Origin: Acidobacteriaceae bacterium
GTDB taxonomy: Bacteria > Acidobacteriota > Terriglobia > Terriglobales > Acidobacteriaceae
DNA: 36,820 nucleotides
NCBI GenBank assembly: GCA_025352065.1
Contig: JANXUC010000155.1
Location: 1-36,820, forward strand
Direction of reading: 5' to 3'
Part shown: positions 15,698 through 36,820 of the stretch, in pieces
Position numbering within the stretch: position 1 is the first letter of the stretch
How the letters are laid out: each line of letters opens with the position of its first letter
Notes under the pieces: model-generated
Databases searched by the model: none
What the model was told of the DNA's origin: nothing
Seen by the model: the letters and a program-made list of their open reading frames with translations, nothing else
Translations under genes and position numbers: made by a program

Positions 15698-18367
15698 GTG
15701 ATCGGCGAAACTATTTCCCACTACCGCGTCGTGGAAAAGCTTGGCGGCGGCGGGATGGGCGTTGTCTACAAGGCCGAAGACACCCGGCTGCATCGCTTTG
15801 TGGCGCTCAAGTTCTTGCCGGAGGAAGTAGCCCGCGATCCCCAGTCTCTGGCGCGCTTTCAGCGGGAAGCGCAGGCGGCCTCCGCTCTCAACCATCCCAA
15901 CATTTGCACGATTTACGACATAGGCGAGGCAAACGGCCGCGCTTTTATCGCGATGGAGTTTCTGGATGGCGTGACGCTCAAACACACCATCGGCGGAAAG
16001 CCTGTCGAGAACGAGGTATTGCTCGGGCTGGCCATCGAAATTGCCGATGCACTCGATGCCGCTCACAGCAAGGGAATCGTTCATCGCGATATCAAACCCG
16101 CCAATATTTTTGTCACTGAGCGTGGACACGCCAAGATTCTGGATTTCGGGCTGGCGAAGGTTGCCCCGGGGAACAAGGCGTCGGAGAAGAGCGCTGCCGC
16201 GGGCGATTTAGCCGACACCTTGGCAGGTAGTATTGACGAGCAGCACCTGACCAGCCCCGGTTCCACCTTGGGCACCATCGCCTACATGTCGCCTGAGCAG
16301 GCCAAAGGCAAAGAGCTCGATGCGCGCACGGACCTGTTTTCCTTCGGCGCGGTTCTCTACGAGATGGCGACGGGCACCCTGCCATTTCGCGGAGACAGCT
16401 CAGCCACGATTTTCGACGCCATTCTCAACCGCGCCCCCACGCCAGCCATCCGACTCAATCCCGGACTGCCGGCTAAGCTGGAAGACGTCATCAACCGGGC
16501 GCTGGAGAAAGATCGCGAGCTGCGCTACCAGAGCGCCAAGGAGATGCGGGCCGAACTGCTGCGCCTCAAGCGGGATACGGATTCGAGCCGGGTTCCGGTG
16601 GCGGTCTCGACGGAAACGTCCAGCGTGAACGCCAACTCCTCCACCAATGCCCACCCGATTCCCGCCTCGCGCCGCAATGCTCTGCTCTATGTCGCCGGGG
16701 GAATCGTCTTTCTCGTTGCCGCATTCTACACGTTCCATTTCTGGCCGTACTCCGGCCCAGCACTCGATACCGCCAAGATCGCTAAGATCAGCCAATGGAA
16801 CAAGCCGATAGATGCTCCCGCACTTTCGCCCGACGGCCACACCCTGGCCTTCACTTCTCCGGTCGATGGCTATGATCAGCTCTTTGTGATGCTCACGTCT
16901 GGCGGCCAGCCGCTACAACTCACGCGGAACGAAGGCAACAAATTTGTGTTTGGATTCTCCTCCGATGGTTCGCAGATTTTCTACGGACCCAGCATTGGCG
17001 AATATGAAATCTGGACTGTGCCCACACTCGGGGGCTCTCCGCAGCGTCTAGCGATAGGCCGGGGAGTGGCTCCTTCGGTAGATGGCCAGTCTCTATTCGT
17101 TCTTAGGGCCAATCAGCAAATTGTCCGAACCGATTCTTCGGGTGCTGGTGAGGAAGTTATTTTCAAGGCGTCCGGGCCATTGCTACGGCTGCGGGGCATG
17201 ATCGCGTACCCGGATGGCAAGGGTCTGCTGCTCTCCGTTGTTCGATCCAACAGCCTGGTTCTCCAGCGTTTGGATTTAGCTTCGCGCTCGGTCTCGGAGT
17301 TGGGCACGGTGCTGAATTTCGCCAGCCCCATGTCCTGGGCTGAACCCGGTAAATCTATCTACGTCAGCCGCCAGGTCAATGGCATCACGAATCTGTGGGA
17401 AGTATCTCTATCCGATCACTCTTTGAAACAGATTACGTTTGGCCCCGGTCCCGACCTCGATCCGATGGTTCGGCCCGACGGCAAGGGCCTGTTCTTCATC
17501 AACGGCAAGAAATCGAGCGTTCTCACACTCTATTCCGTCGCGTCCCACCAGTCCTCGGATGTGCTTGCCGAGGACATTTTCCAGCCCGTTCTTTCGCGCA
17601 ACGGCCGCCGCGTGGCTTATCTTACGACGCCCGAAGTTGGCAAAGCGGAACTCTGGATTTCCGACCTCGACGGCGCCAACCGCCTGAAGCTCGCGAATGC
17701 CGCGGTTCACATGGAAACGCTCGCGTGGTCCCGCGATGATTCCAAATTCGTGTTCTCGGATGTAAATGAGAAGGAAGGCAAAACCTACGTCATCGATGCG
17801 GATGGAACGCATCTTCGCCAATTGGCGACCGGCGGGGAGATCGTCGAGCTTGTCGCAGCTGAGCCTGGTACAGATTCGATCTACTACTCCACCTCTGAGA
17901 CGGACCATTCCTCCGCTTCCTCGAAGACTTGGAAGCTCGACCTCAAGGACCCAGCCGCAGCCCCGACTCTTTTGGAGCAGAAGTGCCTCGGCGTCACGGA
18001 TGTCTCCCCCGACCGCAAATTTATTTTAGGCGTCCAGCTCTGGGGAAACGATCCAGGGATTTACGAATACTCCATCGCCGACAAGAAGTGCGTGCTTTTG
18101 AAGAACCTGCCCACCTATGTCGCCCGGTTCGCGCCGGATGGCAAGTCATTCATCTTCATCGTCGCAGCCCACGGTGAAACCACGGTATTCCGTCAGCCGT
18201 GGCTCAATGGCTCCCTCGCCGGCGCGGCCAAGCCCGTGCTGAAGTTCCCCTTCGCGATCCGGGAAGACTATCAGGGCAATGCGTATGACATTTCTCAGGA
18301 TCTTTCCAGGATTGTGTACGTTCGCCCGAATGGGCGGGATGATCTTTACTTCTTGCCGATCCAATAG
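15698..18367 (+). CDS. Transmembrane Ser/Thr protein kinase with C-terminal beta-propeller
   Basis: An 889-residue PknB-type kinase. The kinase domain (~9-290) has the GGGGMGVVY loop (16-24), ATP-binding Lys38, catalytic HRDIKPAN with Asp131, DFG with Asp149, and SPEQ in place of APE in the activation segment. A Thr/Ser-rich juxtamembrane stretch (295-325) leads to one membrane helix (~326-347). The C-terminal ~540 residues contain repeated PD40/TolB-type blades such as [20 protein letters not shown] and [10 protein letters not shown]. The propeller is likely periplasmic and may sense a ligand or protein. The GTG start is conserved in context with the neighbouring kinase. The two kinase domains are about three quarters identical over the first ~155 residues (counted by eye), indicating tandem duplication. 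Confidence 0.92.
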
Positions 18368-18406: not shown

Positions 18407-20839
18407 ATGATCGGCGAAACCATCTCTCACTACCGCATCGTTGAAAAGCTGGGCGGCGGTGGCATGGGCGTGGTTTACAAGGCCGAAGACACCGAACTTG
18501 GTCGCTTCGTGGCCCTCAAGTTCCTGCCCGAGGAACTGTCGCGCGACCCGCAAGCATTGGAACGCTTTCGACGAGAAGCTCGCGCTGCGTCCGCCCTGAA
18601 TCATCCCTGCATTTGTACAATTTACGAAATTGGCAAGCACGGCGACCAGACCTTCATTACCATGGAGTTTCTGGACGGCATGACGCTGAAACATCTCATC
18701 GCCAACGAACAGATCGAAAACGAGACTCTGCTGACGTTAGCGATTGATATCGCCGACGGCCTAGACGCGGCGCACGCGCAAAGCATCATTCATCGCGACA
18801 TCAAGCCAGCCAACATCTTCGTAACCAAGCGCGGCCACGCCAAGGTGCTGGATTTCGGACTCGCCAAGGCCTTGCCTACCACCAATCCCTCGGGTGCGAC
18901 CGACAACACCGCCGCCACCATGGACGAGCATCTCACCAGTCCGGGCTCAACGCTGGGCACGGTTGCCTACATGTCTCCCGAGCAGGCACGGGCTAAAGAT
19001 ATGGACGCGCGCAGCGACCTCTTCTCGTTTGGCGTAGTGCTCTACGAGATGGGGACGCGGACGCTGCCATTCCGCGGCGGCAGTACCGCAGAGATATTCC
19101 AGGCCATTCTTGGTGCCACGCCCGTACCCGCTCTGCGGCTCAATCCTGACTTACCGCTGGAACTCGACCACATCATCCACAAAGCGCTGGAGAAGGATCG
19201 TAATTTGCGTTATCAGAACGCGGCGGACTTGCGCACAGATTTAGTGCGGCTCAAGCGGGACTTGGACTCCGGGAGATCGTCGATTGCAACGTCCGACGTG
19301 AGCGGCATAACGCCGATAACCAGCGCACCCGGAAGTCCTGCGAATGCTAACTCGCCGTCAGGAAGTACCCCGGCGATAAGCTCTTCGTCGAACCCGGCGA
19401 TCCCGAGTGTCGGCTCGCGGAAATACCTGGCTCTGGGCCTGACCGCAGTGTTGGTAATTGCCGCCGCGTCCGGCATCTATTTCCTTCGCGGTAAATCCTC
19501 CACCAAGAAAGTCGGCTCCATCGCCGTGCTGCCTTTCGTCAACGCCACGACCGATGCCAACAATGAATATCTCAGCGATGGCCTCACCGAAAGCCTGATC
19601 AGCACGCTCTCCCAGTTGCCGGACGTGAAAGTCATGGCGCGCAGCACGGTCTTCCGCTTCAAAGGAAAACAAGACGACCCGAGCCAGATTGGGAAGACTT
19701 TGCAGGTGGACGCCGTGCTCACCGGGCGTATCACCCAGCACGGCGATCAAATCGGCATCGACGCCGATCTGGTCAACGCCGCCGACGGCACAGAACTCTG
19801 GGGAGAGCAGTACAGCCGCAAGCTGGCCGACATTACGCAGCTACAAGGCGATATCACCCGCGATATTTCGAACAAACTGCGCATCCAACTCACGGGCAAC
19901 GAGCAGCAGCGGCTCGGCAAGGCTGGAACCACGAACGCGGAAGCCTACCGGCTGTATCTGGAGGGACGCCAGCTTTGGTACGGCCGCACGCCGGAGGGAA
20001 TGCAGCGGAGCATCGAACTCTTTCAGCAGGCGATTGCCGCCGATCCCAACTATGCGTTGGCCTACACCGGGCTGGCGGATGCGTACTATGTGACGCCCGG
20101 GTTCAACGCGGGTATCACGTCGAAGCAGGGCAACCGGCTGGCCGAAGAGGCGGCGCGCAAGGCTCTGGAACTCGATGATTCTCTTTCGGAAGCGCACTCC
20201 ACGCAAGCTACAGTTCTGACCCTGGAGCGCAAGTGGAGCGAATCCGAAACGGAATTCCGCCGCGCGATTCAGCTGAATCCCAACAACGCCGTCGCGCATT
20301 ACTTCTATGCTTTCGACAACCTCGTTCCTCAGAAACGCATGGCCGAGGCCGAGGCCGAGTTTCGCAAGGCCTTGTCGCTGGACCCCCTCTCTTCCATCGT
20401 GAACGCAAACTTCGCGGTCACGCTGGAAGAGATGCACCGGTACCCGGAAGCGCTCGCCGAATTCCAGAAAATTCTGGGGCGCGATCCCAACTCGCGGATC
20501 ACGCATCACAAACTGGGGCAGTTTTACGCTACGACCGGCCACCTGGATCAGGCGGAGAGCGAATGCCAGAAGGCTCTGCCGGCTCCGGTCGCGGCCAGCG
20601 CCGACGCGAAAGGCTATGTCACGTGCGAGCTGGCGCTTGAGGGAGGCATACGGTCTGCCGCCGTGGCGCTCGCCTACGCAGCCAGCGGAGACCACGACCA
20701 CGCCTTCGAATCTTTGGAAAAGGCCTACGCCGATGAAGACATCGAATTGCTGATCGTCATCCGCTCACCCGCGTTCGACTCGCTCCGCTCCGACCCGCGC
20801 TACAAAGACCTGATGCGACGGTTGGGACTGCCGGAATAG
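18407..20839 (+). CDS. Transmembrane Ser/Thr protein kinase with TolB-like and TPR sensor
   Basis: An 810-residue kinase. The kinase domain (~9-290) carries GGGGMGVVY, Lys38, HRDIKPAN (Asp131) and DFG (Asp149). A Ser/Pro-rich linker (295-335) leads to one membrane helix (~338-361). Then comes a TolB N-terminal/FlgO-like domain starting SIAVLPFVN and including [24 protein letters not shown] (~366-495), followed by tetratricopeptide repeats (~505-800), e.g. [20 protein letters not shown] and [20 protein letters not shown]. The outer part probably binds partner proteins. It begins 39 bases after the upstream paralogous kinase. The TolB-like/TPR half has the same layout as the winged-helix regulator at 33715-36543. 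A repeat and a hairpin terminator follow. Confidence 0.92.
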
Positions 20840-24208: not shown

Positions 24209-24408
24209 CCTGCTAGCACTTTTGTCCTACCACTGACCTTACCGATAGAACCCGACCCTTCATTATGCAATATTTTGCACATCCGATTTTCACTGACCCA
24301 ATCTATGCATCTAAAGAATGAACGAGATGCAGCTCCATGAAAGATACCGATTCTTGGTATTGCACTTGCCTCTCATACTTCATCTCGTACTTTGGAGTGC
24401 ATCGGGCC

Positions 24409-26886
24409 ATGCAGCCTATTTTTGCGCAGAAATCGAATTTCCCACGCGTTGCGAACCTGTTCGCTACCGCAGCGATCCTGAGCCTGTTGTTTGTGAGCTG
24501 TACTTTTTCAGTTCTTGCCCAAGTGAACGTAGTCACTCAGCATAATGACAATTTTCGCACCGGCGCCAATACCAACGAAACCTTCCTGACTCCCGCGAAC
24601 GTAAGAGCGGCCACTTTCGGTGCTCTGTTCTCGCAACCGGTGGATGGGTTGATCGCGGCCCAGCCGCTCTATGTTTCGGGCGTGAATATCCCGGGACAGG
24701 GCGTCCACAATGTCGTCTACGTGGTTACGCTGCACGATAGCGTGTACGCTTTCGACGCCGACAGCAACTCGGGAGCGAACGCCGCTCCACTATGGTCTGT
24801 AAACTTCTTGAATCCAGCGGCTGACATTACCACGGAACCGATTGCGGAATTGGGCTGCGGAACAACCACGTTCTTCACTGAAATGGGAATCTTGGGCACA
24901 CCGACCATCGATGTCGCCTCCAGCACCATGTATTTGGTGGCCAAGACGAAGGAGAACGGAATCTACCATTTCCGCCTTCATGCTCTTGACATCACAACCG
25001 GCATGGAAAAGCTGGGCGCGCCCTTGGATATGACCGGCACGGTGACGGGCAAGGCCGGGACGCTGACGCTCCTGGCAGCTGGAAAGAACATGATGTCGCG
25101 ACCCGGAATTCTGCTGTCGCAAGGCATCGTCTACCTCGCGTTCGGTTCCAACGGCTGTGACGGCGGCGGCACGCGCGGATGGGTCGTAGCCTACGACGCA
25201 AACACGCTGATGCAGCTCGGAGTCTTCAACGACGAAGTTGATTCAGCAGGTGCACACGGCAACATCTGGATGGCAGGCAGCGGCTTGGCGTCCGACGACA
25301 ACGGAAACATCTTTTTCTCGACGGCGAATGGCCCGTTCGATGCAAACATCGGCAACCGGGATTACGGCTCCAGCTTGGTAAAAATCGGCTGGGGATCCAG
25401 TGGTTTGGTTGCCAAGGATTACTTCACTCCTTACAACCAGGCTTATCTCGCGTCGCACGATCTTGATGTCGGATCTGCTGGTGTCACGATGCTGCCCGAC
25501 CAACCCGGCCCCCATCCGCACTTGATGGTCGGATCAGGGAAGGAAGGCGCTATTTACCTGGTTGATCGCGACAACCTGGGTCAGTTCAATCTGGCCGACA
25601 ACAGCCAGATTGTGCAGTTCCTTCCTCACGCAGTTGGAGTCATGGAAAGCACCGCAGTTTACTGGAACGGAAACGTGTACTTCACCGGTCAAGGTACGGG
25701 CGTCTCTTCCTACTCTGTGAGCACAGGGCAACTCAGTCTGCTGGGACAAAGCGCAACCAAGCCTGCGTCGCCGCATACGCCGTCGTTTTCGGCGAATGGC
25801 AACTCGAACGGTATTTTGTGGCTTCCAAATTCGCTGAATGGCATTTTGGCCTTTGACGTTTCTGCTCCCACTGCCGCTTCAATTTACAGCCTGAAGACGA
25901 CGACCACGCTGGCGCATTTCAATACGCCTACCATTGCCAACGGTCACCTGTATGTAGGTACCAACCTGAACTTGCAAATCGTGGGCTTGTTCGGCCACTT
26001 GTCGCCAACGGGCGGAAACGGTCAAGCCACACAGCCCTTGGGCACCTTGCCTCTACCGCTGCAAGCCACCGCAACCGACCCGTATTCTGGACTGCCGGTT
26101 GCTGGCATAACTGTGACTTTCAGCGACGGTGCGAAAGGTGGAGTTTTTAACCCCGTTTCGGCGGTCACCGACTCGAATGGCATAGCTACCACAAACTACA
26201 CCGTACCCAGTAAGGTCGGGACCTACGCCATAACGGCCAAGAACGCCGCTTACACTCCCGCTATTTTTACTGTGTCGGTGGTGCCCGGCGCTCCGGCAAA
26301 AATAGTAGTGGCCAGCGGCACGAAGCAAACCGCTCCGGTTCAAACAACCTTCGCGGCGGCGATCGTATTTGCCGTGCAAGACGTCAACAGCAACGGAGTT
26401 TCCGGACAGACCGTGAACTTCAGCGATGGCAACAAGGGCGGAACGTTCAATCCTCCATCGGCTGTCACCGACGCCAACGGCAAAGTCTCCACGTTCTATA
26501 CTGCTGGCACCAAGACAGGCACTATAACGTTGACTGCCACCTCAGGGACTCTGCATCAGGCGGCGTATGGCACGGTAACAGCAGGGCCCGCAGCTTCCAT
26601 CGCAGTGTTTTCCGGCAATAACCAAATCGGCGCGGTTTCTACCGTATTGGTCAACCCGCTCGTTGTTCTGGTGAAGGACCAGTTCAGCAATGTGGTTCCG
26701 GCGGCACACATCACGTTCACCGATGGCGGCGTGGGAGGCTCCTTTAGCACGCCCACCATCGATACGGACGCGACCGGTAAGGCCAGCGTAACCTACACGT
26801 TGCCGCCTACCAGCGGCATCGTCAGCATCAGCGCTTCCTACTCGGGAGGTTCAACCACGGCAAACTTTACCGAGACCGCTCAGTAG
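24409..26886 (+). CDS. Secreted PQQ-type beta-propeller protein with three Ig-like domains
   Basis: An 825-residue exported protein. Residues 1-~38 form a long signal peptide (LFATAAILSLLFVSCTFSVLAQ). Residues ~40-545 look like a PQQ/quinoprotein-type propeller, with blades such as GLIAAQPLYVSGV, VVYVVTLHDSVYAFDAD, GAIYLVDRDNLG and HLYVGTNLNLQIVGL. The catalytic residues of true PQQ dehydrogenases cannot be confirmed, so it may be a binding propeller only. The last ~280 residues are three Big_1/invasin-like domains, each with a VTFSDG-KGG-F-P-AVTD-NG-A motif. ATG 24409 is chosen for the signal peptide; an in-frame ATG at 24337 would add 24 residues. A strong terminator follows. Confidence 0.82.
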   Translation: MQPIFAQKSNFPRVANLFATAAILSLLFVSCTFSVLAQVNVVTQHNDNFRTGANTNETFLTPANVRAATFGALFSQPVDGLIAAQPLYVSGVNIPGQGVHNVVYVVTLHDSVYAFDADSNSGANAAPLWSVNFLNPAADITTEPIAELGCGTTTFFTEMGILGTPTIDVASSTMYLVAKTKENGIYHFRLHALDITTGMEKLGAPLDMTGTVTGKAGTLTLLAAGKNMMSRPGILLSQGIVYLAFGSNGCDGGGTRGWVVAYDANTLMQLGVFNDEVDSAGAHGNIWMAGSGLASDDNGNIFFSTANGPFDANIGNRDYGSSLVKIGWGSSGLVAKDYFTPYNQAYLASHDLDVGSAGVTMLPDQPGPHPHLMVGSGKEGAIYLVDRDNLGQFNLADNSQIVQFLPHAVGVMESTAVYWNGNVYFTGQGTGVSSYSVSTGQLSLLGQSATKPASPHTPSFSANGNSNGILWLPNSLNGILAFDVSAPTAASIYSLKTTTTLAHFNTPTIANGHLYVGTNLNLQIVGLFGHLSPTGGNGQATQPLGTLPLPLQATATDPYSGLPVAGITVTFSDGAKGGVFNPVSAVTDSNGIATTNYTVPSKVGTYAITAKNAAYTPAIFTVSVVPGAPAKIVVASGTKQTAPVQTTFAAAIVFAVQDVNSNGVSGQTVNFSDGNKGGTFNPPSAVTDANGKVSTFYTAGTKTGTITLTATSGTLHQAAYGTVTAGPAASIAVFSGNNQIGAVSTVLVNPLVVLVKDQFSNVVPAAHITFTDGGVGGSFSTPTIDTDATGKASVTYTLPPTSGIVSISASYSGGSTTANFTETAQ

Positions 26887-27704: not shown

Positions 27705-30700
27705 CTAGTGGACAACCTGCTTCACAATTGCCGATGTGCTGGTGTTGAAGTTCGTGTTACCTCCATACACCGCCGTGATCGAGTGAGTACCCACAGCCAA
27801 CGTCGATTTTGTGATCGCAGCTTTATGGGTAGTTGCGTTGACGGCTGCGGTTCCAAGGATAGTGGCGCCATCCTTGAACGTCACCGTACCGGTAACGCCA
27901 GTGCCCGGCGCTATCGTCGCCGTAAAGGTTACAGCTTGCCCTTTGTTGGACGGGTTCAAAGAAGAGACAAGCGCTGTGGTGGTGGCAGCCTTCTTGACAG
28001 TCTGAGTGACTGTCGGTGAAGTGCTCCCGCCAAAGCTCGAGTTCCCGCTATAGATGGCCACAATTGCATGCGCGCCCGCCGTCAGGGTCGGAGTCGAGAA
28101 CGTCGCCTTGCCCGCGGACAGTGCAACCGCGCCAAGAGTGACCGAGCCATTCTTGAAGGTCACGGTTCCGGTTGCCGTCGCTGGCGTTACCGACGCGGTG
28201 AAGGTTACAGAGTGCCCGTAAGTGGAGGGATTCAAGGAAGAGGCCAAGGCAGTTGCCGACTTGCCCAGAACCTTGAAGCTAGCCGACTTCGTGGCTTCAG
28301 CGTTGCCTGCGCGGTCGGTACTGCTGAAAGCCACCGTATGACTTCCGGCGGTTGCCACGGTGAATGGACCCGTGTAGTTCTTGAGCGCCGCGCCATCCAG
28401 CCGATAGGCCGTGCTCGCAATGCCGCTTAGGTTGTCGCTCGCACTCAGCTTGACGGTTACCGTGCTTGTCCCGCTGAAGCTCGCTCCAGTGACAGGCGCG
28501 GTTAGATCAATATTGACGGGAACCGCGTGCTGCGATTCCTGGTTTCCCGCGATATCCGCACTGAATTCATACACGTTGTGTACGCCTTCAGCAGCGACAG
28601 TAATCGGACTGCTGTAGGAGATGCAGGATTGAGTCTGGATACAGTTGCCGTTATCGACCGCGTAGTAAGCCGAGAAGATTCCCGATCCAGTCGATCCGCC
28701 CGGATCGGTTGCCGCCAGCGAAACTTGCACTGACGCCCTGTTCCACCCGTTCCCGTTGGGGTTCGGAATCGACGTGGCACTCGTTATTGGAGGAATCGTG
28801 TCATAGCAGACGGAGCCGTAGGTTTGCAGTCCATCCCAACCAGCGTTGTCCCATGAACGAACATAAGCAGTATGGCAACCCTGGCTCACTCCACCCGAAC
28901 AGCCTCCTGCACCCGTTAACGACAAGCACCCTGTCGTCGCCTTTGGAAACTCAGGGCCACTGAAGAACGAGTCGCCTTGTCCCGGAGTGGCATGGATATA
29001 GACATCTCCTGGATCGGCATCCCACGCTTGGCTGAATCCAGCGATTCCGTTGGCGGGCCGACCGTTCCCGGAAGTGTCGGTCATGAACCAGCTTACAATC
29101 TGGTTCGAGTTGTACCAGACTCCAGTGGAGGGTCCACTGAAGTTCGCAACCGGGCCGCCGAAATCTCCTGCCAGATAGGTGTTGATCGACCATGCCATTT
29201 GCAGCGCGTTAAATGATCCCCACCCGGTCGCGAGGTCGTAACCAGCATAAGCACACCATGCGGTTAAGCCTTTCGCGATCGTCACATCGTTGCTATTGCA
29301 TCCTGACGTGATGTCGTAGAAGGGATAGTGCCCCGCATAGGGAGCGTTGAGTCCTTCGTAGTACATGTACCAGTTGGGGTTGCCCATCGGCGCGCAGCTG
29401 CCATTGCCGCAGCTGTTGCCGATGATCGCTACGTTCAGGTAGTAGAGATAGGCATTCTCTTGAGCGAAGAAGCCGGATAGCTCGGGGGCAACGATGCTGG
29501 TGCCACCTACGCCACCCAGAGACCCATTGAAGAAGTAATTCTGTCCACTGGCGGCATTCAGCGATACGTCGGGAACACTGCGAGCGCCGACACATTGAGG
29601 AAGTCCTGCCTGGTAACCGGGCGCGGCAAACTTAGAGCTGCAGCCACCGCCGCCGCCTCCATTGTTGCCGGCGCAGCTTCCTTGCGTCGCACCACCTGTC
29701 CATGCTACTTCGTTGAAATACGTTGAATCGAAGTTCAGCGTCAAAGTTGTTCCACCTGCGGAAACCAAATCCGGGTCTGAACCGGGATAGCTAACGCTAA
29801 TCGTCGAGCAATCCGCTGTGGCGCCGTAATCGTGCGAAATTCCGACCAGCGACCAGCCCTGGCCCACCATCGAGTTGAAGATTCCATGATCCGTGTCCAT
29901 GGTTGCGTTGCTGGCACAGGAAAACTCCGCGCATCCCCAGCTCACGTTCATGGTGCGAGCGTTTCCGTCCGCCAGCATGTGGCTATAGATGTCGGTGAAG
30001 GTCGAGAGTTGGTTGTTCACGCCCTGATACATAAAAATCGAAGACGTATCCGTAAATGCTCCGAAGCTATTCGACATCGCCATCGACCATTCAAAATCGA
30101 GAGTTCCCTCTTGATCGCAGCAGGCGGGATTTCCATCGATTGGAATCGTGAAATAGTGATACGCCAGGTAGGGATACTGGGCCTGGAATCCAGCCCAGTC
30201 ATTGGTATTTTGCGTGCCCGCGGTGGCAATCGCAATCGAGGTCACCGGAGGCGTTCCGCCCGGATTGCCGAACGGATTGCAGCAATGTCCCTGCGCGTAA
30301 AGCGCATTGAAATCATAGGCATTCGATCCGTAGAGGTCGGTCGGATCCAAAAACCCGTTGGTGAGGTTGGGAAGATTTTTGCGATTCTTCGAGACCTTCA
30401 TCGCGGCCAACAGCTTCTTGTGATCGCCATTCACACCGCCCGTCGCCGTCGTTCCCTTCACTGGTCCAGGCGAATAAATTGGCATGGCAGGTTCAACTCC
30501 GTGACTGCCGGGCTGCAGTCTCTGAATATCATTCAATCCGCCGATAGAATGCACCAGGCTGGCGGTACTTCCGGCAATCTGCGGCTCGACGTCGTTGGAG
30601 AAACGAACTGATGTTCCAATTTGATAATTATTGATCTTAACGTTGAAAGCCTTTTCGATCACGCTGACAGGGCCTTCGAGATCGACGATCAGACGGTGCG

Positions 30701-31100
30701 GAAAGCGCGCCGTCACGGTCAGACCTTGGCTTTTCGCCCAATCCACCACGGCTTGCTCGTCGGCCTTCGACGGGCCAAAACGCGCATTCCATTCTTCCGG
30801 CTTCAGGAAGTGGCGATAGTCCTTCGTACCTTTGGTGTGCAGATCGGCCAGGAATTGTTCTTCCGCGGCAGCATGCGGACGTTCAATGCCTAGAACAACT
30901 CGTAACATCTGGGTTGGGCTTGCGGGCTGCACAAGCTTGGCGGTTCCATCCACAATTTGCGGAGGAATTTGCGCGGCGGTTTGTGCCACAGCGAAGTGGC
31001 TCAGGCTTGCGCTGAGAACGAGGAAAAATATCGGCAAGGCAGCTCGACGGCCTGACTTGAGGGATAGCGTGCTTGCAGATTGCATCTTTTCGAATTGCAT
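27705..31100 (-). CDS. Secreted S53 (sedolisin/pro-kumamolisin) protease with Ig-like C-terminus
   Basis: A 1131-residue exported serine-carboxyl peptidase, expected to be active at acid pH. A signal peptide (RRAALPIFFLVLSASLSHFAVAQ) is followed by the pro-kumamolisin activation domain (~45-190; HFLKPEEWNARFGPS and RLIVDLEG). The catalytic domain (~270-650) shows the Glu/Asp pair in EGTLDFEW, a candidate oxyanion Asp in ISHDYGA and the nucleophile in GGTSIVAPELSGF. After it come a putative carbohydrate- or calcium-binding stretch, two Ig/OmpL47-like repeats (YYAVDNG and YRLDGAALKNYTGPF) and two Big_3 Ig-like domains. The ATG at 31100 has AGGAG 6 bases upstream. It lies 109 bases after the upstream surface protein gene on the same strand and may be co-transcribed. 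Confidence 0.88.
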   Translation of the reverse strand: MQFEKMQSASTLSLKSGRRAALPIFFLVLSASLSHFAVAQTAAQIPPQIVDGTAKLVQPASPTQMLRVVLGIERPHAAAEEQFLADLHTKGTKDYRHFLKPEEWNARFGPSKADEQAVVDWAKSQGLTVTARFPHRLIVDLEGPVSVIEKAFNVKINNYQIGTSVRFSNDVEPQIAGSTASLVHSIGGLNDIQRLQPGSHGVEPAMPIYSPGPVKGTTATGGVNGDHKKLLAAMKVSKNRKNLPNLTNGFLDPTDLYGSNAYDFNALYAQGHCCNPFGNPGGTPPVTSIAIATAGTQNTNDWAGFQAQYPYLAYHYFTIPIDGNPACCDQEGTLDFEWSMAMSNSFGAFTDTSSIFMYQGVNNQLSTFTDIYSHMLADGNARTMNVSWGCAEFSCASNATMDTDHGIFNSMVGQGWSLVGISHDYGATADCSTISVSYPGSDPDLVSAGGTTLTLNFDSTYFNEVAWTGGATQGSCAGNNGGGGGGCSSKFAAPGYQAGLPQCVGARSVPDVSLNAASGQNYFFNGSLGGVGGTSIVAPELSGFFAQENAYLYYLNVAIIGNSCGNGSCAPMGNPNWYMYYEGLNAPYAGHYPFYDITSGCNSNDVTIAKGLTAWCAYAGYDLATGWGSFNALQMAWSINTYLAGDFGGPVANFSGPSTGVWYNSNQIVSWFMTDTSGNGRPANGIAGFSQAWDADPGDVYIHATPGQGDSFFSGPEFPKATTGCLSLTGAGGCSGGVSQGCHTAYVRSWDNAGWDGLQTYGSVCYDTIPPITSATSIPNPNGNGWNRASVQVSLAATDPGGSTGSGIFSAYYAVDNGNCIQTQSCISYSSPITVAAEGVHNVYEFSADIAGNQESQHAVPVNIDLTAPVTGASFSGTSTVTVKLSASDNLSGIASTAYRLDGAALKNYTGPFTVATAGSHTVAFSSTDRAGNAEATKSASFKVLGKSATALASSLNPSTYGHSVTFTASVTPATATGTVTFKNGSVTLGAVALSAGKATFSTPTLTAGAHAIVAIYSGNSSFGGSTSPTVTQTVKKAATTTALVSSLNPSNKGQAVTFTATIAPGTGVTGTVTFKDGATILGTAAVNATTHKAAITKSTLAVGTHSITAVYGGNTNFNTSTSAIVKQVVH

Positions 31101-31156
31101 GTTCAGCTCCTGGTGAGTGTAAGTGTTCAGTGAAACAGCCGACGCCGCTTTTCTGG

Positions 31157-31200
31157 CGAACCCGGAGACTACGGCGCCCATTTAGGGGGCTCCCGGTTCG
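31157..31200. repeat. Hairpin between the surface protein gene and the S53 gene
   Basis: CGAACCCGGAG (31157-31167) and CTCCCGGTTCG (31190-31200) pair over 10 of 11 positions. There is no T-tract. It may attenuate or stabilise the transcript between the two minus-strand genes. Confidence 0.45.
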
Positions 31201-31209
31201 AAAATGAAA

Positions 31210-33456
31210 CTAGTTGGAGGGACGCTTCGCACCTGCGGTACGTCGAAGAGAAGCTGCGCTTTGCATCCCAAATTTCTTCGGATCCATCCCGAACAGGTCG
31301 GGGTGCAAGTACTTGCCTGCTTCCTCGCCTGTTTTCTTGACTTCCACCGGGATGCGATGCGCGTCGGCCCAGGCATCGTGACGAACCCCTGTCACCTGCC
31401 AGGAAACTTCTGCGTTAGGTTGTCCGCCAGCAATCTCAAAGCGATTGCCGACGACCTTCTTGGAGATATAGAGATTCGGCCCAGGCGCACCGATCGCGGT
31501 AAGTTGATAACGGAAATCGCGGTTGAGCGCTTCGAACCAGTCCGGCAGGGTGACCGCAGCCTTCCCTTTCGCATCCAGAATCGCCGTGCCGTTGTAAATG
31601 TTCATCATGTCCGGCGATTCCACGAAGGAGTGGTAGAGATACTTCCCCGACGGATCGAGCGGATGATCGATTTTGAAGGAGCCGCCAGCCTTGGACATGT
31701 TGCCGGCGATGGCGAGATTGCCACTGGTGTCCAGAACTAAGGCACTTCCAACACCATCCGCTTCAATGAGCGGCAATCCGGCCACTGATTGCTTGATGAC
31801 CACCAGTGCGGGCCATGTCAGGCCCGTGTTCTGGAACCAACCAGCGAAACCATCATCGGCGGTGCCCAGCACTCCAAATCCATTCCTTAACCCTGTATCT
31901 CCGTGGGTTCCGATATTCGTGTAAGAGTTCCAAAGCGAACTCACAGACCCAGACCATCCAAGCACCCCGTTTTTGGCTCCCGAGCCTTGAACGCCGTAGC
32001 CAGAAGCGCCGTTTCCCGCTCCAAAAACTCCAACTGAATTTGCTCCCTCCGAGACTCCCAATACGCCGTACGAAACGGAGGCGCCAGTATCCGTAGAGTG
32101 CCCAAAAATCGCCGTCGTTCCACTTGCGGAACCTGTCACCACCAGCGGCGAAACAATTGGATTGTTCGAGCTAATCGCCTGCGGGAAGGTGAACACATTT
32201 GCACCAGCCAGCTTCGCGTAGCGGGCGTCGGTACTCACGGTGTCCAAATTCAGCGTGACCGCGCCGCTGGTTCCGCCTCCGGTGAGACCCGGACCTGCCG
32301 TCACTCCGGTGATCGTCCCAGCGCCCGCCGCGCTGCAAACCCACGCCGTTCCATTCCATTGCAAGACCTGGTTTGCAGCACAGGTTTTGAGCAGGCTCAG
32401 CGTCACATTGCCCGTCGTTCCACCGCCCGCCAGACCAGAACCCGCGGTGACTCCCGTGAGCGTTCCCGCGCCCGGAAACGTCTGCCCCGGCGCAAACGTC
32501 AGGATGCCTTTATTGTTGAACTTCAACCCTGTCTCAGCCGGGACTGCCGCGCCCGCTCCGTAGAGCAAGTTCAGCGTGCCAGAAGCCGCCGCCGTATGAT
32601 TCCCTGCCGGTTCGGCCTGCAAGCGGAATGTCTGATTCACCGGCGCGGTCGCATTGAAAACGGAAGCCACGAAATCTCTAGGATTCGAATTGAAGCCTTT
32701 GGTGGCCGTCGCAACACCGGTCGCGGGAGACACGAGTGTTCCGCGAATGAACGCTCCGCCCGTCACATCGAGCGTTGCTGCTGGAACGATGTTGCCGATG
32801 CCAACCTTCGCTGTAGCGCCTGTTCCCGTCTGGAACAGAGCCGAGTTCGCCAACGTCGTCGCATTCGTCCAGATGGGCAAAAAGTTCGTCGTCCCCGTAC
32901 CGACAATCGTTGCGGGCAGAAGTATCCCTGCACTGGAAGACAATGCACTCGCGGCACCCCCGTTCCCCCCGGAAGGAGGCGCCGCTAGCACAAAAGCCGA
33001 TGGCGGCAGTCCGCCCACGGTCTCCGCATCCGCCGCTTTCAGCGCATACGGCACACTGAGCAGCAGAATTCGATTCTGTTCTTTCTGTCCCGCCACCTGC
33101 ACGCTGAGCCAGCGCGCTTCACCGGAGCTGAACAGCTCGACTGGCAATGGCTTGTTCGCGCCTAACGAAACGCTATATCGACCGGTCGCGTCGGCCTGCA
33201 CGTTCTGCGTCTCCATCCACAGCGCGCCGCCACCTTGCTCCTCTTGGTAGAGCGCGAAGGTGATACCAGCTATGCCCGAAATGGCCTTGCCGTTCTGGTC
33301 CTTGATGGAACCCTGGAAACGCACCTGGTTCGGCACTGCGCTGGACTTCGGCGAGGCTACATTCGCAGATTGCGATTGTGCCGACGACACTCCGCAAATC
33401 ATCGCAGAGCAGGCAAACATTACGAGCAAGCGTGAAAGCGCTCGAAGACGCAGCAT
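31210..33456 (-). CDS. Large secreted surface protein with conserved C-terminal domain
   Basis: A 748-residue exported protein of unknown function. A signal peptide (LRALSRLLVMFACSAMICGVSSAQ) is followed by an N-terminal beta domain (~40-150) with VRFQGSIKDQNGKAISGIAG and SVPYALKAADAETVGGLPPSAF. The long middle is repetitive and low-complexity, with TGVTAGSGLAGGGTTGNVTLSL-like units that resemble phage tail-fibre or filamentous surface proteins. The last ~140 residues form a conserved domain (HPLDPSGKYLYHSFVESPDM, DWFEALNRDFRYQLTAIGAPG, VSWQVTGVRHDAWADAHRIPVE). The start at ATG 33456 has AAGGAG 6 bases upstream. It is divergent from the winged-helix regulator. The same C-terminal domain ends the partial gene at 36601-36820. 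Confidence 0.8.
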   Translation of the reverse strand: MLRLRALSRLLVMFACSAMICGVSSAQSQSANVASPKSSAVPNQVRFQGSIKDQNGKAISGIAGITFALYQEEQGGGALWMETQNVQADATGRYSVSLGANKPLPVELFSSGEARWLSVQVAGQKEQNRILLLSVPYALKAADAETVGGLPPSAFVLAAPPSGGNGGAASALSSSAGILLPATIVGTGTTNFLPIWTNATTLANSALFQTGTGATAKVGIGNIVPAATLDVTGGAFIRGTLVSPATGVATATKGFNSNPRDFVASVFNATAPVNQTFRLQAEPAGNHTAAASGTLNLLYGAGAAVPAETGLKFNNKGILTFAPGQTFPGAGTLTGVTAGSGLAGGGTTGNVTLSLLKTCAANQVLQWNGTAWVCSAAGAGTITGVTAGPGLTGGGTSGAVTLNLDTVSTDARYAKLAGANVFTFPQAISSNNPIVSPLVVTGSASGTTAIFGHSTDTGASVSYGVLGVSEGANSVGVFGAGNGASGYGVQGSGAKNGVLGWSGSVSSLWNSYTNIGTHGDTGLRNGFGVLGTADDGFAGWFQNTGLTWPALVVIKQSVAGLPLIEADGVGSALVLDTSGNLAIAGNMSKAGGSFKIDHPLDPSGKYLYHSFVESPDMMNIYNGTAILDAKGKAAVTLPDWFEALNRDFRYQLTAIGAPGPNLYISKKVVGNRFEIAGGQPNAEVSWQVTGVRHDAWADAHRIPVEVKKTGEEAGKYLHPDLFGMDPKKFGMQSAASLRRTAGAKRPSN

Positions 33457-33512
33457 GGAGTTCTCCTTCAGCGGTGTTCCTGGTTTTAGAACTTCGGTCG
33501 GGGAAGATGCCT

Positions 33513-33542
33513 GCACCAAGACTGTCGTGTCCGCCTTGGTGC
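33513..33542. promoter_or_regulatory. Inverted repeat in the divergent promoter region
   Basis: GCACCAAG (33513-33520) and CTTGGTGC (33535-33542) are perfect inverted complements with a 14-base spacer, between the surface protein gene and the winged-helix regulator gene. It is a candidate operator for that regulator. Confidence 0.4.
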
Positions 33543-33714
33543 CTCAGGCTTTTGAACTCAGCGATTGTCCCTCGAAGTGCCGTCGCGCTCAATAGCGATG
33601 AACTGTTGGTCACCTTAATTTTCATGTCGCCGTAAACGATTGAAAATAAAAGACATGTTGGTATCGTCTCAAGTTGGAGTAGAATCCCGAGTACGGTTCG
33701 GGGGAGCCGCACGG

Positions 33715-36543
33715 ATGATCGAGCGAAGTCCAGCCGCAGGCGCGGTGCGATTTGGCGGCGATTTCGAGCTCGATTTCAGAACCTACGAACTGCGCCGCGC
33801 CGGGCGTGTACTGAAACTCGAACGTATTCCCAAAGAGATCCTGCTGCTGCTGGTTTCCCGCCAGGGAGAGATCACGACGCGCGACCAGATTATCGAGAAA
33901 ATCTGGGGCAAAGACGCTTTTCTGGACACCGACAACAGCATCAACGGAGCCATCCGCAAGATTCGCACGGTTCTAAGAGACGACCCCGAACAACCGCGCT
34001 TCATCCAAACCGTCTCTGGCACCGGATATCGATTTGTTGCGGCAGTCCAGACGGTTCACCCCGCGCGTCCGATTCCCACAGTGCGTCCCCCCGATGTATC
34101 TGAAACTGAGGGGCTCCGCAGCGAACTTGCAAAGCTCGCTACCTCTCAACCGCTTATTGTCTTAAGACAACGCCGAATCGGATCCTGGTTTGCTGGCGGC
34201 GCGGCGATCTTGCTGCTGGCCCTGGGCGCATTGACTCTAACCTCGATCCGCGAGCGCCTTTTCCTCAAGCCCGCATCCGCCCTCGCCTTCCAGTCTCGTC
34301 GATCCGTCGCCGTACTTGGATTTAAGAACCTTTCGGGGAGAGAGGATGAAGCCTGGATTTCGCCTGCGCTTTCGGAAATGTTGGGCGCGGAACTCGCCGC
34401 TGGTCAGGCATTGAGAATCGTTCCGAGCGAAGATGTGGCGCGGATGAAGCTCGACCTTTCCCTACCTGCCGCAGACACTTACTCCCGCGACACTTTGAGC
34501 AAGGTGCGCAATCACCTGAGTACGGACATGGTCGTGCTCGGTTCCTACCTTGCGCTCGGGAAGGAGTCTGGCGGAAAAATCCGCATTGATCTCCAGTTGC
34601 AGGACACCCGGCAGGGAGAAACCGTCATCGTCATCTCGCGCGACGGTGCGGAGTCGGACCTGGCTTCGCTGGTTTCGCAGACGGGTACTAACTTGCGCCA
34701 GAAACTTAATATCGGCGATGTTCCTACTCGCGATGCGCCGGAGATTCGTGCCACTCTTCCCGAAAACTCTGAGGCGGCGCGACTCTACGTCGAGGGCCTG
34801 TCCAAGTTGGAAAGTTTCGACGCGTTGGCCGCCCGTACAACTCTTGAAAAGGCGGTTGCAGCCGATCCCACTCACGCGCTTTCTCATTCCGTACTTGCGG
34901 ACGCCTGGTCCCGCCTCGGTTATGATGCGAAGGCAAAAGACGAAGCCAAGAAGGCTCTGGATCTGTCAAGCACTCTTCCCCGCGAGCAGCGACTCTTTAT
35001 CGAGGGTCGCTATCAGGAGTTTGTTAATGATCTCCCGGCTGCCGTTGAAGTCTACAAGACTCTCCGAAACTATTTTCCGGACAACCTCACCTATGGGCTG
35101 CATTTAGCTTCCGCGCAAACCAGATCTGGCTCGGGAAAAGACGCTCTCCAGACCATTGAGCGAATGCGCAGATTGGCGAAGCCCGCCAGCGAGGACCCTC
35201 GTATTGGGGTTGAAGAGGCTACTGCCGCGGAATCGTTGGGCGACTTCCGGCGCGCTCAGCAAGCGGCGGCGACGGCGGCAGAAACCGCCCAAAAACGCGG
35301 CAGCCGTCTGACTTTGGCGGAAGCTCAGATTCGCGAGGCCTGGGCCTGGGATCGTCTCGGCGACCTGTCTAAAGCCGAAAAAGAGATTTACGAAGTGCGA
35401 GACCTTGCCGCCAACGCTGGAAACCCTCAGTTGAACGCGAACGCCCTGCGCGGCGTCGGATTGGTTCTCTATGACAAGGGAGACTTCGAGGGCGCTCTCA
35501 AATTCTTCCAGCAGGCACTCGAGATCAACCGTAAGACCGGGGCGCTGCGCCGTGTTTCTGTAATCCTGACCAACGTCGGGAATGTCCTCTACGAGCAAGG
35601 CAAGTTGGAGGAGGCGAAGCGATATTACGAAGAAGGACTGAAAGTCGACCGCGAAACCGCCTACGCCAAGGGAATTGCCAGCAATCAAGGCAGCATCGCA
35701 AACACACTGGACGGGTTAGGCGATCTGGTTGGCGCTACCCAAATGCAAGAGCAGTCTTTGGAAGGCTTTCGCGCTATCGGCGACAAACGGGGGGAGGCCT
35801 CTACTCTCAACAACTTGGGTAGCGTGCTGCTTGAGCGTGGCGAACTGGCGTCCGCCAAAAAGAATTTCGACCAGGCGATGGTTCTGCAGCAACAGATGGG
35901 CTACCAGCGCGGTCGCGGCTTCAGCCTGACCTTATTGGCCGACGTGTTGCTGCAACAAGACCAGATCGAGCAAGCCAAGAAAACCATCGAACAGGCGATT
36001 GCGTTACGCACAGAGATGAAGGACGAATCGAATGTCGCTCGAAATCAGGTAGGCCTGGCCGAAATTCTGTTAGAGCTGCAGCGCCCCGCCGAGGCGGAAT
36101 CTCTTGCTCGCGCTGCCAGCGTTGTATTTGAAAATCAGAAGGAAGATGGCAGCGGCTCGCTTGCACAAACAATTCTTTCCAGAGCATTGCTGGCACAGGG
36201 GAAAGCGAAACAGGCAAAAGTCGCCGCCGATCACGCGATTTCCCTTTCCCAAAAGACCGCGGATCGCATTTCCCGCTTTGAGGCAGCCATAGCCTCTGCG
36301 GAAGTAAACGCTGAATCAGGCCAAACCGCAGAAGCGATCAAGGCCCTGGAAAGCACCGCCAAAGAAGCAAGACTTCACGGTTATCTAGAATACGAACTCG
36401 AGACCCAGCTCCATCTGGACAAAATCGAACTCCACTCCGGCCACCCGACCGCAGGCAAGGCCAGCCTCAAGAAGTTGCAAGGGGATGCTCAGGCGAAGGG
36501 CTTTCTGCTTCTAGCTCACAAGGCCGCTGCGGCGATGATCTGA
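33715..36543 (+). CDS. Membrane-bound winged-helix regulator with TolB-like and TPR domains
   Basis: A 942-residue one-component regulator of CadC/ToxR layout. The N-terminal ~10-105 is an OmpR-type winged helix (FELDFRTYELRRAGRVLKLE, then RDQIIEKIWGKDAFLDTDNSINGAIRKIRTVLRDDP and FIQTVSGTGYRFVA). One membrane helix follows (~156-178). The outer part starts with a TolB N-terminal-like domain (SVAVLGFKNLSGREDEAWISPALSEMLGAEL, ~195-340) and continues with about a dozen TPRs to the C-terminus (e.g. ALRGVGLVLYDKGDFEGALKFFQQALEI, NLGSVLLERGELASAKKNFDQAM). The start is ATG 33715, which has GGGGGAG 8 bases upstream; TTG 33640 and ATG 33655 lack this. It is divergent from the surface protein gene and its target may include that promoter. 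Confidence 0.9.
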   Translation: MIERSPAAGAVRFGGDFELDFRTYELRRAGRVLKLERIPKEILLLLVSRQGEITTRDQIIEKIWGKDAFLDTDNSINGAIRKIRTVLRDDPEQPRFIQTVSGTGYRFVAAVQTVHPARPIPTVRPPDVSETEGLRSELAKLATSQPLIVLRQRRIGSWFAGGAAILLLALGALTLTSIRERLFLKPASALAFQSRRSVAVLGFKNLSGREDEAWISPALSEMLGAELAAGQALRIVPSEDVARMKLDLSLPAADTYSRDTLSKVRNHLSTDMVVLGSYLALGKESGGKIRIDLQLQDTRQGETVIVISRDGAESDLASLVSQTGTNLRQKLNIGDVPTRDAPEIRATLPENSEAARLYVEGLSKLESFDALAARTTLEKAVAADPTHALSHSVLADAWSRLGYDAKAKDEAKKALDLSSTLPREQRLFIEGRYQEFVNDLPAAVEVYKTLRNYFPDNLTYGLHLASAQTRSGSGKDALQTIERMRRLAKPASEDPRIGVEEATAAESLGDFRRAQQAAATAAETAQKRGSRLTLAEAQIREAWAWDRLGDLSKAEKEIYEVRDLAANAGNPQLNANALRGVGLVLYDKGDFEGALKFFQQALEINRKTGALRRVSVILTNVGNVLYEQGKLEEAKRYYEEGLKVDRETAYAKGIASNQGSIANTLDGLGDLVGATQMQEQSLEGFRAIGDKRGEASTLNNLGSVLLERGELASAKKNFDQAMVLQQQMGYQRGRGFSLTLLADVLLQQDQIEQAKKTIEQAIALRTEMKDESNVARNQVGLAEILLELQRPAEAESLARAASVVFENQKEDGSGSLAQTILSRALLAQGKAKQAKVAADHAISLSQKTADRISRFEAAIASAEVNAESGQTAEAIKALESTAKEARLHGYLEYELETQLHLDKIELHSGHPTAGKASLKKLQGDAQAKGFLLLAHKAAAAMI

Positions 36544-36600
36544 CACGGATACATCCAAGGCCGAGGCACCGCAGCATTTGCCGACGTTACCCTGGCCGTT

Positions 36601-36820
36601 CTAGCGTTTCGTCTTGTGAGCGCGATAACTCTCGATATCGAGCAATTTGTTGCGAGTCGAGCCGCCGTTGTAGCTGACACTCTGCTCAACGGGAGCGCCA
36701 AAGGCTTCGGGGTGGAGATAGCGGCCTTGCTCGGCTTCCGTTTTCTCCACTTCGACCGGACTGCGGTTCGCGTTCGCCCAGGCATCGTGACGGATACCCG
36801 TCACCTGCCAGGAAACCTCC
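36601..36820 (-). CDS. C-terminal part of a second surface protein (5' end outside window)
   Basis: The minus-strand frame is open to the end of the window. It begins, in the visible part, EVSWQVTGIRHDAWANANRS and continues PVEVEKTEAEQGRYLHPEAFG, then a different tail ending KLLDIESYRAHKTKR. It is homologous to the C-terminus of the protein encoded at 31210-33456, which reads VSWQVTGVRHDAWADAHRIP at the same place. The DNA at 36776-36820 and 31367-31411 matches at 39 of 45 positions (counted by eye). It is convergent with the winged-helix regulator gene, 57 bases away. Confidence 0.8.
   Translation of the reverse strand, partial: EVSWQVTGIRHDAWANANRSPVEVEKTEAEQGRYLHPEAFGAPVEQSVSYNGGSTRNKLLDIESYRAHKTKR

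Follow-up and report, generated by a model that had tools for sequence, protein, structure and literature searches.

ToxR/CadC-like transmembrane regulators are described as widespread, with above-average numbers per genome in Acidobacteriae (PMC10269533, excerpts). Mosaic adhesive trimer (MAT) fibres have been described in Bdellovibrio bacteriovorus (PMC10769870, excerpts), and for the foot of the R-pyocin a lectin fold was assigned and sugar binding proposed (PMC6363177, excerpts). We herein analyse a locus at the end of the window (the whole stretch of 36,820 nucleotides, which is the entire contig C33 of a 4.25-Mb genome in 183 contigs), in which a putative surface fibre gene stands beside a membrane-bound one-component regulator. 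On balance, we consider it somewhat probable that this ToxR/CadC-like transmembrane regulator controls the adjoining gene, which would encode a trimeric adhesive fibre.

Organization of the locus and its intergenic region

The ORF list and our reading of the sequence place surface gene 1 divergently from the regulator gene, and the regulator convergently with surface gene 2 (Table 1). Both members of the divergent pair proposed by the first-pass annotation are real genes, as judged by their ORFs and, for the regulator, by Pfam domains. Gene 1 starts at ATG 33456 with AAGGAG ahead of it, and its product consists, in this order, of a signal peptide, an N-domain, a glycine-rich variable middle and a C-terminal tip domain. 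The best start of the regulator is ATG 33715 behind GGGGGAG, with alternative upstream starts at 33640 and 33655. Between the stop codons of the regulator and of surface gene 2 lie 57 bases, and the C-terminus of the latter shares 64% amino acid identity over 47 residues with the gene 1 protein, in keeping with the earlier view that the regulator converges with another gene encoding this C-terminal domain.

Table 1. Features of the locus, with positions in the window.
Feature	Positions	Strand	Basis
Secreted peptidase of the pro-kumamolisin (S53) type, carrying Ig-like repeats; gene directly behind gene 1	27705..31181	-	PF09286, 85.5 bits
Surface gene 1 (putative fibre), 748 aa	31210..33456	-	ORF, sequence reading, family alignment A1
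Direct repeat copy 1, within tip-domain coding sequence	31298..31410	.	repeat comparison
C-terminal tip core, residues 618-691; predicted jellyroll, phage tailspike/pyocin-foot-like	31384..31605	-	AlphaFold2 model, fold search
Conserved N-terminal beta-rich domain, distantly MAT_N-like	33025..33336	-	NF053851; model pLDDT 79.8
Shared intergenic region, 258 bp; presumed regulatory target	33457..33714	.	sequence reading, promoter-like matches
Inverted repeat, 8 + 14 + 8; weak candidate site	33513..33542	.	near chance level
Membrane-bound one-component regulator, 942 aa	33715..36543	+	ORF, sequence reading, Pfam
Winged-helix DNA-binding domain (Trans_reg_C)	33811..34035	+	PF00486, 64.9 bits (cut-off 26.2)
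Single predicted transmembrane helix	34192..34248	+	hydropathy, one segment; no dedicated TM predictor
TPR region, presumed periplasmic	34747..36540	+	PF13424 and other TPR models
Surface gene 2, 3' end (last 72 codons)	36601..36820	-	runs off contig end
Direct repeat copy 2, within surface gene 2	36707..36819	.	repeat comparison

Since the window spans all of C33, surface gene 2 is cut at the contig end and incomplete, and it is tied to the regulator by position only. Extending the sequence rightward, as had been suggested, succeeded in part: another contig (C144, locus L028) opens, on the matching strand, with sequence for the N-terminal portion of a further surface gene (66% identity over residues 9-199) and may carry the missing end of surface gene 2, but no overlap with C33 was shown. 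The first ~84 bases of C144 depart from the surface family and have no second place in the genome, the sole further match being to the conserved part. Elsewhere, two short adjoining fibre-gene fragments (G000:C47:18345-18664, locus L029; residues 202-227 and 237-320, 77% and 82% identity) adjoin a gene that looks ParB-like by eye; they are apparently paralogue debris.

The S53-type peptidase carries GTS and ExxLD, which we take to be the S53 motifs, and its gene is a possible operon partner of fibre gene 1. As a conserved third member of the locus it was rejected, a single other match (48 bits, in L228) being found among the gene proxies of the loci. Near it, a large protein with group-1 bacterial Ig-like domains is encoded at 24337-26886 (+). 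The window further holds a tandem pair of Ser/Thr kinase genes (18407-20839 and 15698-18367, both +); one of them has TPRs and also matches the regulator's sensor profile, and the other has PD40 repeats.

Three sigma-70-like promoter matches fall within 33400-33760, compared with a mean of 0.2 in shuffles, which weakly supports promoters there; no terminator-like site was found in the same stretch. The inverted repeat that had been put forward as a candidate binding site does exist, with perfect 8-bp arms (GCACCAAG/CTTGGTGC) and 14 bases between them (there is no 30-bp palindrome), yet it is near chance as a privileged site: among 2000 dinucleotide shuffles of the 258-bp region, 6.9% contain one or more such repeats when the spacer may be 3-30 (4.75% with a spacer of at most 20), and so do 38 of the contig's 284 half-overlapping windows of 258 bp. 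Given these frequencies, we rejected the repeat as an operator; a hairpin within the gene 1 5' leader is an equally possible reading, and the fold of this leader has a z of -0.90.

Domains of the surface protein and of the regulator

The surface protein has neither a Pfam nor a PHROG match, and its single NCBIfam match, to the Bdellovibrio MAT N-domain (NF053851), is sub-threshold at 25.5 bits against a cut-off of 60. The same model is matched at E ≤ 0.01 by all 13 full-length members of alignment A1 (16.6-36.2 bits, best E 4.7e-9), and a six-frame search for MAT_N in 41 genomes yielded 0 matches above the cut-off and matches at E ≤ 0.001 in three genomes, the own genome not among them. Because the scores stay below threshold in the A1 members as well as in the 41 genomes, the kinship to MAT is distant. 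The N-domain itself, which directly follows the signal peptide, is beta-rich and about 130 aa long, as seen in alignments A1 and A3 and in a model with strands. Its fold search gave generic Ig-like rows only (best Z 7.0); no Bdellovibrio MAT entry is among the fold matches listed, which excludes nothing. A sequence search of the PDB with A1 gave no match at E ≤ 1.

At the level of sequence, tips and N-domains are exchanged among the relatives of this protein. At least two clearly distinct C-termini follow the N-domain (the L116/L145/L141 type and the L137 type, told apart by eye and by the absence of a tip-profile match), and in L093 a third one does, which by eye might be the same tip in a remote form, while the same tip stands behind CBM96-type N-termini in L117 and L201. 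We also observed a fibre gene consisting of the N-domain only (L157:1349-1954), with a regulator as well as a longer fibre gene next to it. The genome concerned also contains a full-length paralogue, L171, and the N-domain DNA of these two genes is 93% identical.

The tip, modelled as a monomer with AlphaFold2 (pLDDT 88.9), is predicted to share a jellyroll fold with phage tailspikes and the pyocin foot. Its best match is the receptor-binding domain of the Pam1 tailspike, a cyanophage protein (7eea; Z 9.2 over 68 residues, 2.0 Å), followed by a phage depolymerase (Z 7.3), the R2 pyocin fibre (Z 7.0; 6cl6 and 6ct8), the Sf6 tailspike (6.8) and AP22 gp53 (6.7), Pam1 alone lying above the best Z of 7-8 typical of models without a clear match. 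Snail agglutinins (H-type lectins) scored 5.9 and 5.5, below the stated noise level of the tool. Foldseek against the PDB gave E values of 5e-3 or worse, and among the viral models of BFVD the tip matched tail proteins at ~30% identity and E down to 1.6e-10, with TM of 0.5 or less and large rmsd. By tblastn, one phage was found, in two records: the minor tail protein of Arthrobacter phage Mufasa8 (E 8e-4, 56% of the query). Given the MAT-like plan, together with a tip fold resembling phage tail proteins and the lectin-fold foot of the R-pyocin, we read the surface protein by analogy as an adhesive fibre, and we infer its trimerisation and ligand.

In the regulator, the TPRs are preceded by a sensor-type domain that is presumably TolB-like. 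The CadC equivalog model gives this protein 34.5 bits against a cut-off of 400. Its nearest relatives, in L088 (53% identity) and L090, both face another secreted family. The sensor/TPR half is also found behind Ser/Thr kinases and a nucleotide-cyclase-like domain, and one sensor type serves at least three output heads. The fusion to a nucleotide-cyclase-like domain was observed in L107, L106 and L105, Pfam having been run on L107 only (22.8 bits, cut-off 21.9). A scan of genome contigs with the regulator gave 33 pattern matches, among which there was no relative.

Linkage of fibre genes and divergent regulators

The first-pass annotation had made its case hinge on conserved linkage in other genomes, and such linkage was found. 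A divergent winged-helix or Ser/Thr-kinase regulator lies at most 1.5 kb upstream of 16 of the 73 related surface genes, compared with 6 of 299 other long genes of the same loci (odds ratio 13.7, Fisher p 3e-8), the count being made on mechanical ORF proxies from 73 loci, with kinases labelled by motif. For the winged-helix type alone the figures are 8/73 and 3/299 (p 1.6e-4). When the comparison is with other genes that carry a heuristic signal peptide, they are 16/73 and 5/101 (p 8e-4). The heuristic recognised just 70 of 86 surface genes, and among the 'other secreted' genes at least L159 resembles, on visual inspection, a fibre gene that has a different N-terminus. The loci were gathered with surface-protein queries, the named ones being the best 80 of at least 558 confirmed stretches, and several of those counted come from related assemblies. 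The count leaves out the window, L028, the regulator-centred loci L088-L114 (among them L093, a positive), any named locus not on the Acidobacteriota list, genes with fewer than 1800 bases upstream, and duplicates; L155 and L203 were scored negative (ORF overlap; gap just above 1.5 kb), yet each has a divergent winged-helix regulator upstream.

The 16 paired regulators come from 12 assemblies, as told apart by accession or handle, and fall into 14 clusters at 50% identity; half of them (8) are kinases and hence do not themselves bind DNA, and only three of these match the sensor profile. No such divergent regulator accompanies the other 57 of the 73 surface genes. On a tree of 28 winged-helix regulators, on which L155 is labelled unlinked, 11 rows carry the label 'next to a surface gene', irrespective of orientation. 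This label requires 7 changes, of which at least 6 fall on well-supported branches, and its clustering is only weak, with 51 of 500 shuffles giving as low a number. Because the label changes so often, the pairing was formed or kept repeatedly and is not one inherited operon. Of 100 neighbourhood genomes, counting that of the window, 21 have a match to the regulator at E ≤ 1e-60, a figure that also takes in kinases with this sensor/TPR half, and 21 have one to the surface protein at E ≤ 1e-10; both are present in 10, against 4.4 expected under independence, with genome size uncontrolled.

The pair seen in the window, with the same sensor/TPR type of regulator, is repeated in L093 (genome G044) and in L152 (an Acidobacteriaceae MAG), while L157 shows the order surface gene, regulator, surface gene with matching orientations; the first of its two surface genes has the N-domain only. 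Approached from the regulator, the picture is broader: 12 of 15 TPR-type winged-helix regulators in the regulator-centred loci have a divergent neighbour, 7 of these 12 neighbours carry a heuristic signal peptide, and 1 of the 15 (L093) faces a fibre gene. Hence, the divergent pair of the proposed sensing and display cassette is recurrent, but to call the cassette self-contained overstates the case, since the sensor/TPR half sits on several outputs and so seldom faces a fibre gene. The sensor/TPR module is general, and the fibre is one recurrent client rather than an obligate partner. Among the publications listed by our searches of the open-licence literature, none deals with the pairing of fibre and regulator.

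Possible mechanism, alternatives and known systems

What the linkage demonstrates is proximity, not control. In the reading that we favour, the regulator would stay in the inner membrane and contact the shared 258-bp region through its cytoplasmic winged helix, and its periplasmic sensor/TPR part would read an envelope signal and adjust transcription of the fibre gene, perhaps along with that of the downstream S53 peptidase gene. The fibre would be exported and anchored near the cell by its N-domain, displaying a lectin-like tip of the kind that phage tail fibres use for surface glycans. Here we infer the DNA binding, the direction of control, the signal and the topology, as we did trimerisation and ligand above.

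It is also conceivable, though in our opinion rather unlikely, that the regulator controls itself or unlinked envelope genes, and that the fibre gene is its neighbour because secreted genes and regulators of its class both belong to a fast-changing accessory part of the genome. Such an explanation would fit the closest relatives of the regulator, which face other secreted genes, and the scatter of surface-linked regulators on the tree; moreover, a divergent regulator is commoner among other putatively secreted genes (5/101) than among the remaining genes (1/198; p 0.018). However, fibre genes exceed even these other secreted genes in the comparison given above, and their orientation fits a shared promoter region. 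That the surface proteins are left over from a prophage or tailocin, and are not cellular fibres, seems very improbable to us: the tip does resemble phage tail fibres and tailspikes, but signal peptides are present, none of the 13 window ORFs scanned with Pfam (part of the window) has a phage-type domain, PHROG gave no match to the surface protein, and genes of the family occur in records titled as many different bacterial groups.

The idea that recombination between repeats removes the regulator and joins the two surface genes into one did not withstand comparison of the repeats, and we find it scarcely credible. The DNA at 31367-31411 and 36776-36820, described earlier as nearly identical, agrees at 39 of 45 positions; it belongs to a real direct repeat of 113 nt, of which 85 (75%) are identical, with a longest exact run of 17 nt. 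The 28 mismatches are distributed over codon positions 1/2/3 as 7/5/16, and because they lie mostly in third positions, the repeat is explained by paralogy, that is, by conservation of the protein domain. Seventy-eight further tip domains share 48-68% identity with that of the gene 1 protein; they come from records whose titles include Acidobacteria, Zixibacteria, Bacteroidetes, Anaerolineae, Caldilineales and Verrucomicrobia. The direct orientation within one gene family, the N-domain DNA shared at up to 93% by paralogues within other genomes, and the N-domain-only gene beside a regulator in L157 would suit a deletion device; nevertheless, identity, run length and codon-position bias are those of ordinary divergence in a conserved domain, and a search of the own genome gives one full-length copy and fragments, with no fused product.

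Acidobacteriota are abundant soil bacteria, and to our knowledge few adhesins are known in them. MAT-like, phage-tip-bearing fibres that recurrently lie beside membrane regulators offer a testable handle on attachment to surfaces or cells and on its timing, and the analysis separates one reproducible signal, the divergent pairing, from two that dissolve on checking, the repeat and the palindrome. Going beyond the favoured reading of this locus, we speculate that the mosaic phage-tail-like fibres of this acidobacterial group are each wired to a private membrane sensor of their own ligand or assembly state, with exchangeable winged-helix or Ser/Thr-kinase heads. We hold this to be improbable; if true, such wiring would be a modular contact-sensing surface repertoire outside predatory bacteria.

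The regulator resembles the ToxR/CadC-like proteins in its N-terminal OmpR-type winged helix, one transmembrane helix and large C-terminal part (PMC10269533, excerpts), but differs by its sensor/TPR C-terminus, the terms TPR and tetratricopeptide being absent from the main text of that paper. The predicted tip fold is alike in phage tailspikes and the R-pyocin foot, whereas the window protein is cellular and secreted, and the 68-71 residues aligned to Pam1 and R2 are 17-25% identical. Compared with the MAT fibres, the window family scores well below the MAT_N cut-off, carries a different tip, was modelled here as monomers and belongs to a host that, unlike Bdellovibrio, is no known predator; it nonetheless follows the same plan, a conserved N-terminus with swapped tips (PMC10769870, excerpts).
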